From NCBI RefSeq assembly GCF_014696355.1, contig NZ_JACJQA010000003.1:62001-126000 (forward strand): 64,000 nt of DNA, in the 5' to 3' direction. The notes beneath the pieces are model-generated. The model had not been told where the DNA came from. It ran no database searches and saw only the letters and a list, made by a program, of their open reading frames with translations. This stretch comes from Pseudanabaena sp. FACHB-1998. Its GTDB lineage: Bacteria > Cyanobacteriota > Cyanobacteriia > Pseudanabaenales > Pseudanabaenaceae. The position numbers were made by a program, and so were the translations under genes. Shown piece after piece: positions 6,322 to 58,944 of this stretch; position 1 is the stretch's first letter; every line of letters starts with the position of its first letter.

Positions 6322-6509
6322 AATAGTGTAGCTCCTGTAAATAATTGTTAATTCAGGTGTGAACTCAACTGTTAACTCAAACGGGAGACATAAGAGATCT
6401 GGTAGTTCTTACCTCTTATGTTAGCTGCTAGCCTAAAGATCTTTTGATAAGAGATTCTTTAGAATCTAGCCTTAACTCTGCTGCCTGCAAAACAGCAGAA
6501 ATAAGCTTT

Positions 6510-8033
6510 TTAAAACTCCATACGCTGATATTCAGCGACTGAAGTAGCGGCGGGTCTAGCCCGCATCCTTGCCCAGTCACGCAGAGCAGCAACCTGCTCA
6601 GTCATCGTGCGCGAGAGGGGAGTTGTAGACTTCACAGCCGAAATGATATCTAGCTGTGTAAACTCCCGATCTTGGGCAAAAGCTTCATACATAGCGGCAA
6701 TTACCGCCTGTTCGATTTCCGCCCCCGAAAAACCATCGCTTACTTTCGATAGTTGTTCAAAATCGAATCTGTCTAATTTTTCGACATCTGGACGACGCTT
6801 GCACAGATGGATTTTAAAAATATCTCTGCGTTCTTCACCATTAGGCAAATCTACAAAGAATAGTTCATCAAAACGCCCCTTGCGTAAAAACTCCCCTGGT
6901 AACTTTTCGATACGGTTTGCGGTAGCCATTACGAATACAGGTGATTTTTTCTCCTGCATCCATGTGAGAAATGTGCCAAAAATCCGTGAAGATGTACCAC
7001 CATCAGAATCAGCCGAACCTGCTCCCCCAGCAAAAGCCTTATCAAGCTCATCGATGAACAAGATCATCGGTGAAATTGACTCAGCAACCTTGAGGGCATT
7101 GCGAAGATTTGCTTCGGATTTGCCTACGGTAGAACCATCGTAGACTCGTCCCATATCCAGACGGATCAGTGGTAATGACCAAAGGCGAGCCGTAGTTTTG
7201 GCAATTAAGGATTTTCCACAGCCTGGAACACCCAGAATGAGCATCCCTTTGGGTTGAGGCAATCCATAATTTCTGGCTCTTTGACTAAAGGCATTTGATC
7301 GCTGTTGTAACCAATGCTTTAGTTCTTCGAGACCACCTACTGCATCTAAGTCTTCTTCTTCTTCGATGTATTCGAGGATGCCGTTGCGACGGATAAGTTG
7401 CTGCTTTTCGGAGAGGACAATATCGACCTCTTCTTCGGTGAGCTTGCCATTTGTAACTTGGGCTTTGCGATAGACTTTTTCCGCTTCATCTTGGGTTAGC
7501 CCCAAGGTGGCTCGAACAAGCTTTTCGCGAGTTTCCGATGATATTTTCTTGGTGCGAACTTGTCCGAGTTGTTGGTCAAGGACTTCCTCGATCGCCTTCA
7601 TATCAGGCAGAGGAAAATCAAGAACTACGATTTCTTTTTCAAGTTCAACAGGAATAACTTGGATCGGCGACATCAAAATGATTGTTTTTTGAGTGCCTTT
7701 AAAGTTAGCAACCGCATCCCGCAAACAACGAACGATTACTGGGTGATCAAAGAATGGGTGAGCATCTTTAAATATGTAAATAGCAGGATCTTTTTGATCA
7801 GCGCGAGTAATCCATTTCAGAGCAGCCTCTGCGGACTCAGTGTTGTGCTGTGCTGAACCTGTCGTTTGACCATATTCAACAATTCCTTGCGTCACTGTCC
7901 ATGTGAACAGGCGACGGACTGGCTTAAGTTGAGAGATGGTAGCGATCGCCCTTTCTGCTCTTTCTTCCTCGGGGGTGTTGAGGTAGACCAAGGGATATTG
8001 GGCTTGAATTAAAATGCTAAGTTGCTCTTGCAT
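6510..8033 (-). CDS. ycf46: AAA ATPase Ycf46
   Basis: A 507-residue AAA protein. The N-terminal ~230 residues are the Ycf46-specific region. The single AAA module follows, with Walker A GVPGCGKS near 268, Walker B ILFIDELDKAF near 326 and the arginine-finger region FLRKGRFDELFFVDLP. Ycf46 is conserved in cyanobacteria and some plastids and has been linked to regulation of photosynthesis. The next gene downstream is ycf35, another plastid-conserved gene. The start is the only ATG giving the conserved N-terminus MQEQLSILIQAQYPLVYLNT. Confidence 0.93.
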   Translation of the reverse strand: MQEQLSILIQAQYPLVYLNTPEEERAERAIATISQLKPVRRLFTWTVTQGIVEYGQTTGSAQHNTESAEAALKWITRADQKDPAIYIFKDAHPFFDHPVIVRCLRDAVANFKGTQKTIILMSPIQVIPVELEKEIVVLDFPLPDMKAIEEVLDQQLGQVRTKKISSETREKLVRATLGLTQDEAEKVYRKAQVTNGKLTEEEVDIVLSEKQQLIRRNGILEYIEEEEDLDAVGGLEELKHWLQQRSNAFSQRARNYGLPQPKGMLILGVPGCGKSLIAKTTARLWSLPLIRLDMGRVYDGSTVGKSEANLRNALKVAESISPMILFIDELDKAFAGGAGSADSDGGTSSRIFGTFLTWMQEKKSPVFVMATANRIEKLPGEFLRKGRFDELFFVDLPNGEERRDIFKIHLCKRRPDVEKLDRFDFEQLSKVSDGFSGAEIEQAVIAAMYEAFAQDREFTQLDIISAVKSTTPLSRTMTEQVAALRDWARMRARPAATSVAEYQRMEF

Positions 8034-8135
8034 ATAGTAATACAGAGGTTTAATCCTCTATCCTCACCTTGTCTACAGAAAGTCTACGGGAAAATATCTT
8101 GAGAATTATCTTGAAGCTTAGCTGGGCTTAACTCC

Positions 8136-8453
8136 CTAGTTAATGGAAACTAGCTCTTCATCTGGGCTGTCAGCTTTGCCAACAGTGACAGGTAAAGTGA
8201 GATTGCGGTTGCCCCCGATTGCTAGTAGTTCACCATTACGGATCACAACTGTTTGAGAACAGCTCGGACAGTTATAGGTTTGGTGGGTATGTCCGATACC
8301 AGAGGACTCGACGATATCAGCGTGAGCTAGATAAAAGCTAATCGCCTTTTCTGCTAAGTCTGACATGGAGTCGCCATCAATAGCTGAACGAATCTTAAGC
8401 TGTTGATGTAGTCGTTCGGGGAGATAGAAAGTTACCTTTTGCTTGTCTTGCAT
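8136..8453 (-). CDS. Ribbon-helix-helix (CopG-like) regulator
   Basis: The N-terminus MQDKQKVTFYLPERLHQQLK and the following helices (SAIDGDSMSDLAEKAISFYL) look like a ribbon-helix-helix DNA-binding domain. The C-terminal half has one CPSC knuckle (YNCPSCSQTVV), which is half of a zinc ribbon, and may dimerise. A longer frame to 8543 exists, but its extra 30 residues look unlike protein, and ATG 8453 begins the conserved domain. Perfect palindromes lie just upstream, suggesting autoregulation. It precedes ycf46 by about 100 bases on the same strand. Confidence 0.7.
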   Translation of the reverse strand: MQDKQKVTFYLPERLHQQLKIRSAIDGDSMSDLAEKAISFYLAHADIVESSGIGHTHQTYNCPSCSQTVVIRNGELLAIGGNRNLTLPVTVGKADSPDEELVSIN

Positions 8454-55867: not shown

Positions 55868-56269
55868 ATGCAGGATCAAAATTGGGGTGATGAGGAGTTA
55901 TGGATCGTGACCGCTAGTTCGGCAAATGTCCCACAAGCATCGACCACTGGTCAAAAAAGTCCAACTCGTGATTTCAATCCCTATAACAATCCTTCTAAGG
56001 CAACGGTATCAGGTGAGGAAGTGCAAGCGAGTCGCGTCAAGGCAGAAACTTTGGCTGTCCAAATGTCTCAGTTTGTTAGGATTATTGGTCGAGTCTTTGC
56101 TACTGCTCAACAACAAATCGATCCTCTCGCGGGGCTGCAACTGGATGAGATTAAGCTTGCCGTTGAGATTTCAGGTAAGGGTGAAATTAAGTTGCTGGGT
56201 ACTGGTATCGAGACATCTGGCAAAGGGGCGATCGAGTTAAAATTTAAAAGGATTGATCCATCTAAATAA
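55868..56269 (+). CDS. Pepco-like small protein, first gene of the caspase-GUN4 operon
   Basis: A 133-residue protein with a variable acidic N-terminus (MQDQNWGDEELWIVTASSAN). The conserved C-terminal half, FVRIIGRVFATAQQQ and LQLDEIKLAVEISGKGEIKLLGTG, ends in KGAIELKFKRID. It resembles the Pepco/Trypco small domains that accompany peptidases in bacterial conflict systems; the name is from memory and tentative. The two-strand 'VEISGKGEIKLLG...GAIELKFKR' pattern suggests a beta-sandwich. Four genes in tight succession start here. Confidence 0.7.
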   Translation: MQDQNWGDEELWIVTASSANVPQASTTGQKSPTRDFNPYNNPSKATVSGEEVQASRVKAETLAVQMSQFVRIIGRVFATAQQQIDPLAGLQLDEIKLAVEISGKGEIKLLGTGIETSGKGAIELKFKRIDPSK

Positions 56270-56272
56270 GTA

Positions 56273-56458
56273 ATGGGTAAAAAGAATCATGAGAAATCAA
56301 TTAATTCGCTTAAACAACGAATTATTGAGCATCAGCAAAAAATTGACGTAGAGCTACTGAAAGATTATCCCGACTTGGGATTAATTCGTCATTGGCAAAA
56401 AGAGATTCGCGCCTTTGAACTTGGTATTGAAAAAGCACAAAAAAGATTAAGGAGATAA
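56273..56458 (+). CDS. 61-residue coiled-coil protein of the caspase-GUN4 operon
   Basis: Strongly charged and almost wholly helical: KKNHEKSINSLKQRIIEHQQKI followed by LIRHWQKEIRAFELGIEKAQKRLRR. I recall similar short proteins next to Pepco-like genes in other cyanobacteria. It starts three bases after the previous stop and ends two bases before the next start. Probably a protein-protein adaptor; unproven. Confidence 0.75.
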   Translation: MGKKNHEKSINSLKQRIIEHQQKIDVELLKDYPDLGLIRHWQKEIRAFELGIEKAQKRLRR

Positions 56459-56460
56459 AT

Positions 56461-56736
56461 ATGCAGGTTACAGAGTTCCCGATAAATTCTCTAGTGAATT
56501 CCTATAGACCAAAGACGATCGCCAATCCGACTCTTAATACTTTGATTGCTGAGCTAGGGGTTGAATGTCAGAGGGTGATCATGCTGGTACATCAACTGCA
56601 ATTACCAAATATTAGCGATCGCCAAAAAGTTGATGTATTGGCAGAGTTAAATGCTTCTATAATTCATTTACAGTCTCATTGTGACGACGATTTACAGGAT
56701 CTGATTGCGGATGAGTTGGAAAGTATTATTCCTTAA
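56461..56736 (+). CDS. 91-residue helical protein of the caspase-GUN4 operon
   Basis: A small, mostly helical protein. LIAELGVECQRVIMLVHQLQL is followed by SDRQKVDVLAELNASIIHLQSHCDDDLQDLIADELE. No known domain is recognised. Preceded by AAGGAG (56449-56454) at a normal distance. Its position between the coiled-coil protein and the caspase suggests a regulator or chaperone of the protease, which is inference. Confidence 0.8.
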   Translation: MQVTEFPINSLVNSYRPKTIANPTLNTLIAELGVECQRVIMLVHQLQLPNISDRQKVDVLAELNASIIHLQSHCDDDLQDLIADELESIIP

Positions 56737-56768
56737 ATCACATTTTTAGAAAGAGTTTGCAGTCAGCT

Positions 56769-58376
56769 ATGGCGAGAAATTGCGCGGTAATTGTCGGAAT
56801 CAATGACTATGATGAGATTTCGCCTCTGAAGTATGCCAAAAGCGATGCGGAGAGAATGCGTGATTTTTTCATGCAGGATTTGGGCGTTAGTCAGGACGAT
56901 CTGTACTTTTTTACCGATGACTCGCCGCGCAATGCTCAGGGGCGCAAGACACAGCCGACCTATGGCACGCTCAAGTCTTTTTTAGGCGATCGCTTTGCCA
57001 ACCCTTTTCTATCCGCAGGGGATACACTGTGGTTTTACTTTAGTGGTCATGGGATGCCCTGTGAGGGGCGCGATTATCTTTTGCCTAGCGATGGTAATCC
57101 GCGTTCTATTCCCGATCTGGCGATTCCGATTGGTTATGTGACGGAACGCTTGCGGCGGAGTGGTGCGGATAATGTGGTGATGTTGATCGATGCTTGTCGC
57201 AGTGATGGTGCGAAGAATGCGGGTATGGGCATCGGTGAGGAGAAGCAGCAGGGTGTAATTACGTTCTTTTCTTGCAGTCCGTCACAGGTTTCCTATGAGA
57301 TTGATGAGATTGGACAAGGGGCGTTTACGAATGTGTTGTTGGAGGCGTTGCGGATTCAGGGTGAAGGAAATTGCGCGACAGTGGAGCGTTTTTATCAATT
57401 TTTGAGAACTCAAGTACCACGTCTGACGCAACGCTATAAGAACTATGTGCAAACACCCTATGCTGCGATCGAGCCAGCTACGAAGTTACATTATATTTTG
57501 TTGCCGAAATTTGCCAACCTCACCGATATTGGCTTACTGCGAGAAGAGGCGGGTGATGCCGAACTTGAAGGGGATTTTGCTTTAGCTTTTCAGTTATGGC
57601 TGCGGGTAAATGTCGCGGCTGGTGGTACGGATATAAAGGCTATTAAAGCTTTTCAGCGTTTGGCTAATAAGCAATCTGCGCCTAATTCGCAAACACAAGA
57701 AAGAATTAGCGATCAGGGTAGTAAAACTCCTTCAGTGTCGTCTATTTCACCACCTGCTGTTCCTAAAGAATTGCAGAGAGATATTTCCAGAACAACGCTG
57801 CAAATGTCGTTAGAGCCAGAGGTGACTAATAATCTTGTGAACTTGCTGAGTACTAAAGGGATCGACTATTGCGAGCTAGAAAATTTGCTGAAGAATAAGC
57901 AATGGTATGAGGCGGATAAATTGACCGATCGCTTGATGCTTAAGGCTTCAGGACGGGAGAAAGAAAGATGGATCGATCTTGATAGTATTAAAAACTTTCC
58001 CTGCGAAGATTTACAGACGATTGATCGCCTATGGGTGCATTACAGCAATGGACTTTATGGCTTTAGCGTCCAGAAAAAAATATATGTTGAGTGTGGTGGT
58101 AAGCTAAATTTTAGTAATCCGATTTTCAATTCTGAGCCTTGGAAAAGATTTTGCGATCGCACAGCATGGAAAAGCGAGGGTAGGTGGGTGGAATATCACC
58201 AACCATTTTTCAAGGAAAATTTTATGTGTGTTAAGGGACACCTCCCATTTTATAGGGGTTGTGGGAATGCGAAGGGTCTGGATTTTTATGGTTTCCATTT
58301 TGTGGGTGAAATTAATAGAATGGGGGGGTGGGTGGGTATTTACTTCTTTTCTCGCATCGAGACTTGTGAAGTCTAA
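56769..58376 (+). CDS. Caspase-like (C14) protease fused to a GUN4 domain
   Basis: A ~535-residue protein. The caspase/metacaspase domain covers ~1-240: MARNCAVIVGINDYDEISPL, catalytic His in FYFSGHGMPCEGRDYL (~92) and catalytic Cys in VVMLIDACRSDGAKN (~143). A helical segment follows (GLLREEAGDAELEGDFALAFQLWLRV), then a low-complexity linker. The GUN4 domain is at ~375-535: LLKNKQWYEADKLTDRLML, FPCEDLQTIDRLWVHYSNGLYGFSVQKKIY and GHLPF, ending FFSRIETCEV. GUN4 binds Mg-protoporphyrin-type tetrapyrroles, so the protease may respond to pigment status. ATG 56769 is preferred to TTG 56757. Confidence 0.9.
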   Translation: MARNCAVIVGINDYDEISPLKYAKSDAERMRDFFMQDLGVSQDDLYFFTDDSPRNAQGRKTQPTYGTLKSFLGDRFANPFLSAGDTLWFYFSGHGMPCEGRDYLLPSDGNPRSIPDLAIPIGYVTERLRRSGADNVVMLIDACRSDGAKNAGMGIGEEKQQGVITFFSCSPSQVSYEIDEIGQGAFTNVLLEALRIQGEGNCATVERFYQFLRTQVPRLTQRYKNYVQTPYAAIEPATKLHYILLPKFANLTDIGLLREEAGDAELEGDFALAFQLWLRVNVAAGGTDIKAIKAFQRLANKQSAPNSQTQERISDQGSKTPSVSSISPPAVPKELQRDISRTTLQMSLEPEVTNNLVNLLSTKGIDYCELENLLKNKQWYEADKLTDRLMLKASGREKERWIDLDSIKNFPCEDLQTIDRLWVHYSNGLYGFSVQKKIYVECGGKLNFSNPIFNSEPWKRFCDRTAWKSEGRWVEYHQPFFKENFMCVKGHLPFYRGCGNAKGLDFYGFHFVGEINRMGGWVGIYFFSRIETCEV

Positions 58377-58480
58377 ACCGTAAAGCTTTCACACCTCTAT
58401 TAAGATTTGTAAGCCGACAATTTCTTACAGCATAATCAGCATCCTAGCGTTTCGTTACCTGTCACCAGACCCATCATCCT

Positions 58481-58720
58481 GTAGGGGCAAAGCATTCCCA
58501 CCACAATCTATAAATTCTGCAATTATCTCAAATTGGGAATGCTCTGCCCTTAACCTCCAACATTTATCGAAAATCCCCAAACTTCCCTTAACCTCCAACA
58601 TTCACCGAAAATCTCAAACCGCTGGGATAAATTATCGGTAACCGCCAAGAGGGTAGAGCATTTGCGTATAAAGATTTCGGTGATAATTTGCAGATATTGC
58701 CGCAAATGCTCTACCCCTAC
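58481..58720. repeat. REP/BIME unit 1 (two hairpins)
   Basis: Hairpin A (58481-58550) starts GTAGGGGCAAAGCATTCCC and closes with GGGAATGCTCTGCCC. Hairpin B (58651-58720) is GGGTAGAGCATTTGCG ... CGCAAATGCTCTACCCCTAC, i.e. GTAGGGG at its base on the other strand. The GTAG at the hairpin foot is the known RAYT recognition feature. Its last 117 bp (58604-58720) are identical to 58828-58944. Confidence 0.85.
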
Positions 58721-58742
58721 AGCGATTGATTTCACGATTCCC

Positions 58743-58944
58743 TTAGAGGCAGAGCATTCCCGCCACAATCTATAAATTCTACAATCATCTCAAATTGGGA
58801 ATGCTCTGCCCTTAACCTCCAACATCTACCGAAAATCTCAAACCGCTGGGATAAATTATCGGTAACCGCCAAGAGGGTAGAGCATTTGCGTATAAAGATT
58901 TCGGTGATAATTTGCAGATATTGCCGCAAATGCTCTACCCCTAC
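58743..58944. repeat. REP/BIME unit 2 (two hairpins)
   Basis: Hairpin C (58743-58812, TTAGAGGCAGAGCATTCCC) and hairpin D (58875-58944), in the same order as unit 1. The 58828-58944 half is an exact copy of 58604-58720. Unit 1 carries an extra ~38 bp in its middle. The last hairpin lies 27 bases before the transposase start. Confidence 0.85.

Follow-up and report, generated by a model that had tools for sequence, protein, structure and literature searches.

Which function might be served by four closely spaced genes of a cyanobacterium, the last of which joins a caspase-like domain to a GUN4 domain, and do these genes form a single system at all? The window, that is, the whole stretch of DNA analyzed here (64,000 nucleotides from Pseudanabaena sp. 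FACHB-1998, contig NZ_JACJQA010000003.1, positions 62,001 to 126,000), had been described in an earlier note as harboring four genes separated by gaps of about 3, 2, and 32 bp; all of them are present, with these gaps, as open reading frames on the plus strand (Table 1). That note read them as one operon, in which GUN4 senses a tetrapyrrole, Pepco and the two tiny proteins act as regulators, and the caspase is unleashed. The comparative analysis revealed that the four genes are three separate things, i.e., a Pepco-caspase operon, a two-gene unit (B-C), and a GUN4 variable-tail cassette. On the whole, we consider it fairly probable that the tail of this GUN4 paralog is a diversified recognition loop that would trigger the attached effector, carried here on a two-gene operon of Pepco and a caspase-sensor into which B-C was inserted.

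Table 1. Features of the locus, with positions counted within the window
Feature	Position	Strand	Evidence or remark
Pepco small protein, 133 aa	55868..56269	+	PF24393, E 9.5e-27
Gene B, 61 aa, basic, predicted helical hairpin	56273..56458	+	no family match
Gene C, 91 aa, acidic, all-helical	56461..56736	+	second gene of B-C unit
Caspase-GUN4 fusion, 535 aa, ATG start	56769..58376	+	PF00656, 4.7e-22; PF05419, 1e-35
Caspase domain of fusion	56778-57464	+	PF00656
GUN4 domain of fusion	57849-58253	+	PF05419
5' boundary of variable segment, GGACACCTCCC (GHLP codons)	58236..58246	+	
Hypervariable segment, 99 bp, G/T-rich, C-poor	58247..58345	+	in place of GUN4 ligand-loop region
3' DNA element (CTTTTCTCGCATCGAGACTTGTGAA ... 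TACCTGTCACC), ~120 bp	58346..58466	+	supplies a stop codon whichever frame is read
REP-type Y1 transposase, 179 aa	58912..59451	+	PF01797, 1.7e-12; NF047646, 80.7 bits, above cut-off

The first and the last of the four genes belong together. The Pepco assignment, tentative in the earlier note, was confirmed by a score of 94.2 bits against the PF24393 cut-off of 27, with a peptidase gene adjoining; the claimed catalytic residues of the caspase (SGHG and DACRS) are both in place, the pair SGHG and DACR recurring in nearly all complete relatives, and the C-terminus of the fusion is a GUN4 domain. The operonic pairing of Pepco and caspase is also borne out, as a caspase gene lies directly downstream in 20 of the 30 Pepco loci, and a caspase of the FGS type upstream in 3 more. 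The core pair of the locus is an operon of an already known kind: with a small gene directly beside a peptidase gene, it does not differ in any essential way from the Pepco-peptidase pairs of PF24393, and apart from the inserted B-C genes the locus is ordinary. As the name implies, Pepco is presumably a relative of the Trypco adaptors described by Kaur et al. 2020. The C-terminal module of the caspase is exchanged between relatives, the Pepco-linked caspases of other cyanobacteria ending either in GUN4 or in an FGS (C-type lectin) domain, the latter with the variable end typical of diversity-generating retroelements (DGRs). A whole-genome search returned seven GUN4 and three Pepco matches. A 210-aa Pepco-GUN4 fusion with a truncated GUN4 (L005, contig C45 of the same genome) is kept through the genus and adjoins an Hpt-like gene and a chloride-channel/CBS-like gene.

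The two tiny proteins lying in between had been regarded as undescribed; indeed, neither has a significant family in Pfam, NCBIfam, or PADLOC. The AF2 model of C is helical (pLDDT 84), and its comparison with the PDB returned generic helical hairpins without any significant match, so that an identification of C by its fold was abandoned. The idea that the 61- and 91-residue proteins are dedicated regulators of the caspase is contradicted by their presence/absence pattern and genomic context. Among 13 orthologous Pseudanabaena Pepco-caspase operons, four contain B-C, five lack it (in these sister genomes the caspase directly follows Pepco), and four are half-deleted, with an in-frame deletion after which only the 11 initial codons of B remain, fused to C, and, in one case, a stop codon in C as well. 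The earlier note had itself named non-conservation of the small genes beside the caspase as evidence against its reading, and the four-gene order proved to be restricted to a subset of the genus. The C family occurs in 51 of the 291 cyanobacterial genomes; at 57 C loci, B usually lies upstream of C, and caspase/GUN4 neighbors are found almost only in Pseudanabaena. Elsewhere the genes preceding B-C are unrelated (among them ftsH, sufS, thiC, a helicase, and transposases), which speaks against any other fixed partner. When 84,980 genomes were scanned with a profile, 80 B loci were obtained, with C directly downstream in 74; these 74 include all 14 non-phage B loci outside the cyanobacteria, the hosts being Nitrospirae/Nitrospira, Geobacter, Desulfonema, Brocadiaceae, Chloroflexi, KSB1, and Thermaceae. 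The neighbors of B-C are thus unrelated to it in six phyla or more. No C gene was found on the plasmids of PLSDB. Thus, B-C is an independent travelling unit inserted into the Pepco-caspase operon, where these unrelated contexts and its loss or half-deletion in orthologous operons mark it as a passenger or accessory. HicAB-like genes lie near some B-C copies; a toxin-antitoxin-like role of the pair would be a guess.

Some variants of this unit were also observed. B-like domains occur, with no C alongside, in phage-like genes (L234, L236, L238-L248) and likewise in viral contigs; in L234, the domain forms the C-terminus of a protein adjoining a portal-like protein. At L093 (minus strand), an ATPase-TPR protein of 546 aa ends in a fused B (open reading frame 6695-8350), and C follows as a separate gene (6438-6737). 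At L072 and L074, a small gene that by eye is DUF2283-like precedes C in the place of B.

Concerning the sensor, bilin binding by GUN4 is tied to the LxNxLR motif (PMC10156173) and porphyrin binding to F196 and R214, in Synechocystis numbering (PMC8967248). The ligand loop reads GHLPLSNQLRG in the true GUN4 of this genome versus GHLPFYRGCG in the fused domain, which has lost N211, R214, and both leucines of the motif and may keep F196. The fold as such is intact, the model superposing on the porphyrin-bound structures 4xkb/4xkc with a Z of 20.8 and an rmsd of 1.9 over 148 residues. In the model of the tail, the variable part is a disordered loop (pLDDT ~41), whereas the core before it and the final helix after it are both predicted with confidence. 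The view of GUN4 as a sensor can thus be retained in part: a sensor module of the caspase is plausible, and the tetrapyrrole ligand is what the missing motif and arginine speak against. Caspase-GUN4 fusions had been listed in 2010 (PMC2853523), and the idea of tetrapyrrole-sensing GUN4 fusions has already been published (PMC7159879). This published idea and the intact fold would suit a caspase unleashed by a tetrapyrrole-sensing GUN4 under the control of Pepco and two tiny regulators; set against the lost ligand residues and against small genes that most orthologous operons lack or carry in damaged form and that occur in other contexts, such a switch appears very unlikely at this locus.

What replaces the ligand loop is a stretch of DNA in which, between GHLP and a 3' part conserved at the DNA level, orthologs and paralogs are completely different from each other; the hypervariability of the GUN4 tail segment is directly visible in comparisons between species representatives and between plasmid paralogs. 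The 72 distinct segments range from 11 to 169 bp (median 49) with lengths uniformly distributed modulo 3, and their composition (G.42, T.32, A.17, C.10) is common to many genera and practically equal at the three codon positions, whereas the GUN4 core differs by position; dinucleotide ratios are mostly near 1. In pairs whose flanks share at least 80% identity, the segments have an identity of 0.47, compared with 0.44 after shuffling. The clearest, indeed decisive, case is a plasmid of Cylindrospermopsis curvispora, on which paralogous GUN4 genes share 97.1% and 98.2% identity in their flanks, the segments in between, of 66 and 34 bp, having an identity of 0.38 (0.41 when shuffled); two further GUN4 copies on this plasmid behave alike. 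No donor was found for the segments on that plasmid, nor any donor or template for the segment of the window elsewhere in its own genome. Strain pairs of Fremyella and of Leptolyngbya boryana are identical in their plasmids, both without the element described below.

It might be argued that such a tail is a fast-decaying, unconstrained C-terminus beside a conserved terminator, in line with the low confidence of the modeled loop, with G-runs that favor slippage, and with a 3' element that comes after the stop codons. Decay of this kind should leave the frame open at the rate of chance, i.e., in 40% of copies, and the GUN4 frame is open through the element in 83 of 91 distinct copies, which argues that selection keeps the tails translatable (this count is the unbiased one, the lack of in-frame stops in the segments being biased by the choice of open reading frames). 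As the segments are, moreover, unalignable despite flanks that are 97-98% identical, alike in composition in many genera, and followed by an element conserved regardless of frame, we regard decay as unlikely. The pattern is the trace to be expected of a synthesis that is random in length and either untemplated or extremely error-prone; ordinary drift does not fit it.

The element that closes the tail is conserved as DNA irrespective of the reading frame, starting with CTTTTCTCGCATCGAGACTTGTGAA and also including the stretch CTTTTCTCGC. The reading phases of the 83 open copies are 30/27/26, so that one and the same element is translated in three ways (...FSRIETCEV, ...LFSHRDL, and ...SLASRLVKC). 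In the 36 copies that keep it, the far end, TTACCTGKCAC, is always 101-102 bp away from the core. Searching for the core pattern GCAYMGARACTTGTRAACTGTAGCA with up to 3 mismatches, we found the element in 72 of 291 cyanobacterial genomes and 39 of 130 genera, the reversed control giving 1 match; of 30 copies inspected, 29 terminate GUN4 open reading frames and one is a fragment. Within the genus, a DNA search recovered 29 copies in 18 of 26 members, essentially all at GUN4 3' ends. The genome under study has only two copies, both at GUN4 ends, the second gene encoding a NACHT-GUN4 protein. An Rfam scan of the region gave sub-threshold matches only, the conserved fold of the element amounts to a 4-bp TCTC/GAGA hairpin without useful covariation, and viral contigs held no exact match. 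The gene C and the element co-occur above chance (the element is present in 27 of 51 genomes with C and in 45 of the 240 without it; p 1e-6), which genome size alone may explain.

In published work, hypervariability has been credited to DGR-FGS systems and GUN4 read as a pigment sensor (PMC7159879). One alternative is that the GUN4 segment is the work of a DGR whose template has escaped recognition. The genome does possess a complete DGR (contig C34, L331:2254-6760), consisting of a caspase-FGS target, Avd (NF033474, 1.5e-36), a reverse transcriptase (RT), and, immediately behind the latter, a template repeat, and FGS domains on the same caspase scaffold are DGR-diversified. The element and the DGR RT also co-occur above chance (odds ratio 3.6, uncontrolled for genome size), probably through genome size. 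On the other hand, the template repeat of C34 matches the variable region of its FGS target, and apart from the two GUN4 genes no copy of element or segment exists in the genome that could provide a template, including one differing at adenines; this candidate was accordingly discarded. The segments are not adenine-substituted versions of each other at fixed length, as DGR products would be, since they vary in length and frame and defy alignment. In addition, the element is independent of a DGR RT, which is missing (E<=1e-40) from 46 of the 72 genomes carrying it. We therefore judge a DGR origin of the tails to be quite improbable.

The only recurrent neighbor family of the element is a Y1 (HUH) transposase, always convergent and mostly 85-270 bp downstream. 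With a profile, the enzyme or a remnant of it was detected beside 31 of some 92 distinct element copies; among 175 control loci there were 4 such cases, three of them at GUN4 loci (hence, 1 of 172 unrelated controls). It also lies near the element on a plasmid of Nostoc edaphicum, and on the Cylindrospermopsis plasmid two GUN4 stops have an annotated transposase at a distance of 90 bp. Among the neighbors of the element, neither a terminal transferase nor a polymerase was consistently present. The element-linked enzymes match PF01797, and the nearest named family comprises the REP-associated tyrosine transposases (NF047646), with which they share the Y1_Tnp fold; they differ from them in scoring 69.8 and 66.9 bits, below the cut-off of 80, in being convergent to GUN4 genes, and in having a one-ended 3' element. 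The intact Y1 gene of our genome stands beside the second GUN4-tail gene (contig C27), the copy in the window being without an element-linked Y1. The window does contain a Y1 transposase gene (Table 1), of a different subfamily, whose link to the element is uncertain; it adjoins a repeated intergenic REP-like sequence (CCTCCAACATTCACCGAAAATC and relatives, 58455-58830).

The constant convergence of Y1 and the TTAC-like end of the element (TACCTGKCAC) might suggest an ordinary IS200/REP-type insertion sequence targeting GUN4 ends, the variable DNA being a scar of insertion or excision. An alignment of nine loci revealed no conservation past the start of Y1; as conservation stops there, with no second end beyond the transposase, the element and Y1 are not a two-ended IS200/IS605 unit. 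If one also considers that the element is (nearly) confined to GUN4 ends, with few copies per genome, and that the random-like DNA is kept open, this interpretation appears improbable. Y1 is possibly just a linked selfish gene, as it is missing at about two-thirds of the copies, that of the window included.

We therefore return to the diversified recognition loop. All of the 20 element-carrying proteins scanned end in GUN4, and their N-termini are of the effector type: NACHT (8), TIR (4), caspase (4), and Ser/Thr kinase (4), i.e., effector/receptor domains of bacterial conflict systems (PMC7159879, PMC8195603). The presence of the cassette at the C-termini of such proteins suggests that the tail most likely represents a diversified recognition loop. 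According to this model, the unrelated B-C unit would have entered a Pepco and caspase-sensor operon whose sensor is a GUN4 paralog that had lost the tetrapyrrole motif; DNA of random-like sequence and random length would be placed between GHLP and the last helix of GUN4, and the downstream element would permit the protein to end in whichever frame arises. Comparable to CDR3 or to the C-type lectins that DGRs diversify, the loop might then bind foreign or self ligands and, acting in immune recognition, trigger the attached effector, with cell death or signalling as the output. The segment itself might be generated by nicking at the element by the Y1/HUH enzyme, followed by untemplated or highly error-prone synthesis. 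This is the weakest step of the model, and we advance only tentatively, as a rather doubtful possibility, a retroelement-independent system in which the enzyme would open the GUN4 gene at the element, random untemplated nucleotides would be added, and the gene would be resealed in any frame to give an antibody-like loop.

How does this locus compare with known systems? The fusion shares its domain architecture with the GUN4-fused caspases and orthocaspases (PMC2853523, PMC7159879), which are described as tetrapyrrole sensors; unlike them, it lacks the ligand motif and has a hypervariable tail, which goes unmentioned in the excerpted text of those papers. We found no description of variable GUN4 tails in the open-access literature, and, if our interpretation is correct, the cyanobacterial GUN4 fusions, hitherto taken for pigment sensors, should be reread as diversified receptors. 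Programmed protein diversification in bacteria is known from DGRs, phase variation, and cassette recombination; here, NACHT, TIR, caspase, and kinase proteins would share a loop that is random in length, tolerant of frame, and apparently made without a template. There is a close resemblance to the DGRs with FGS/C-type lectin domains (PMC7159879, PMC10907252, PMC7517822), which also diversify a C-terminal domain of caspase, kinase, TIR, and NACHT proteins, are proposed to form hypervariable ligand or antigen sensors, and have the Pepco and caspase scaffold in common with the GUN4 tails. They differ in that the latter use a GUN4 scaffold, with no template repeat found, no RT in most carriers, a G/T-biased segment of random length in any frame, and a linked Y1 transposase instead of an RT.

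The V(D)J junctions of vertebrates (CDR3) are likewise random-length DNA between constant ends, made by a machinery that includes a transposase-derived enzyme. The GUN4 tails are bacterial and comprise one short segment, known from sequence comparison rather than from observed recombination, and their link to such an enzyme is an inferred one; nevertheless, they share with CDR3 the random-like DNA of random length between constant ends and the retention of frame-open products. If this holds, they would be a bacterial counterpart to the way in which the CDR3 of antibodies is formed, the candidate machinery being an enzyme of the transposase type.
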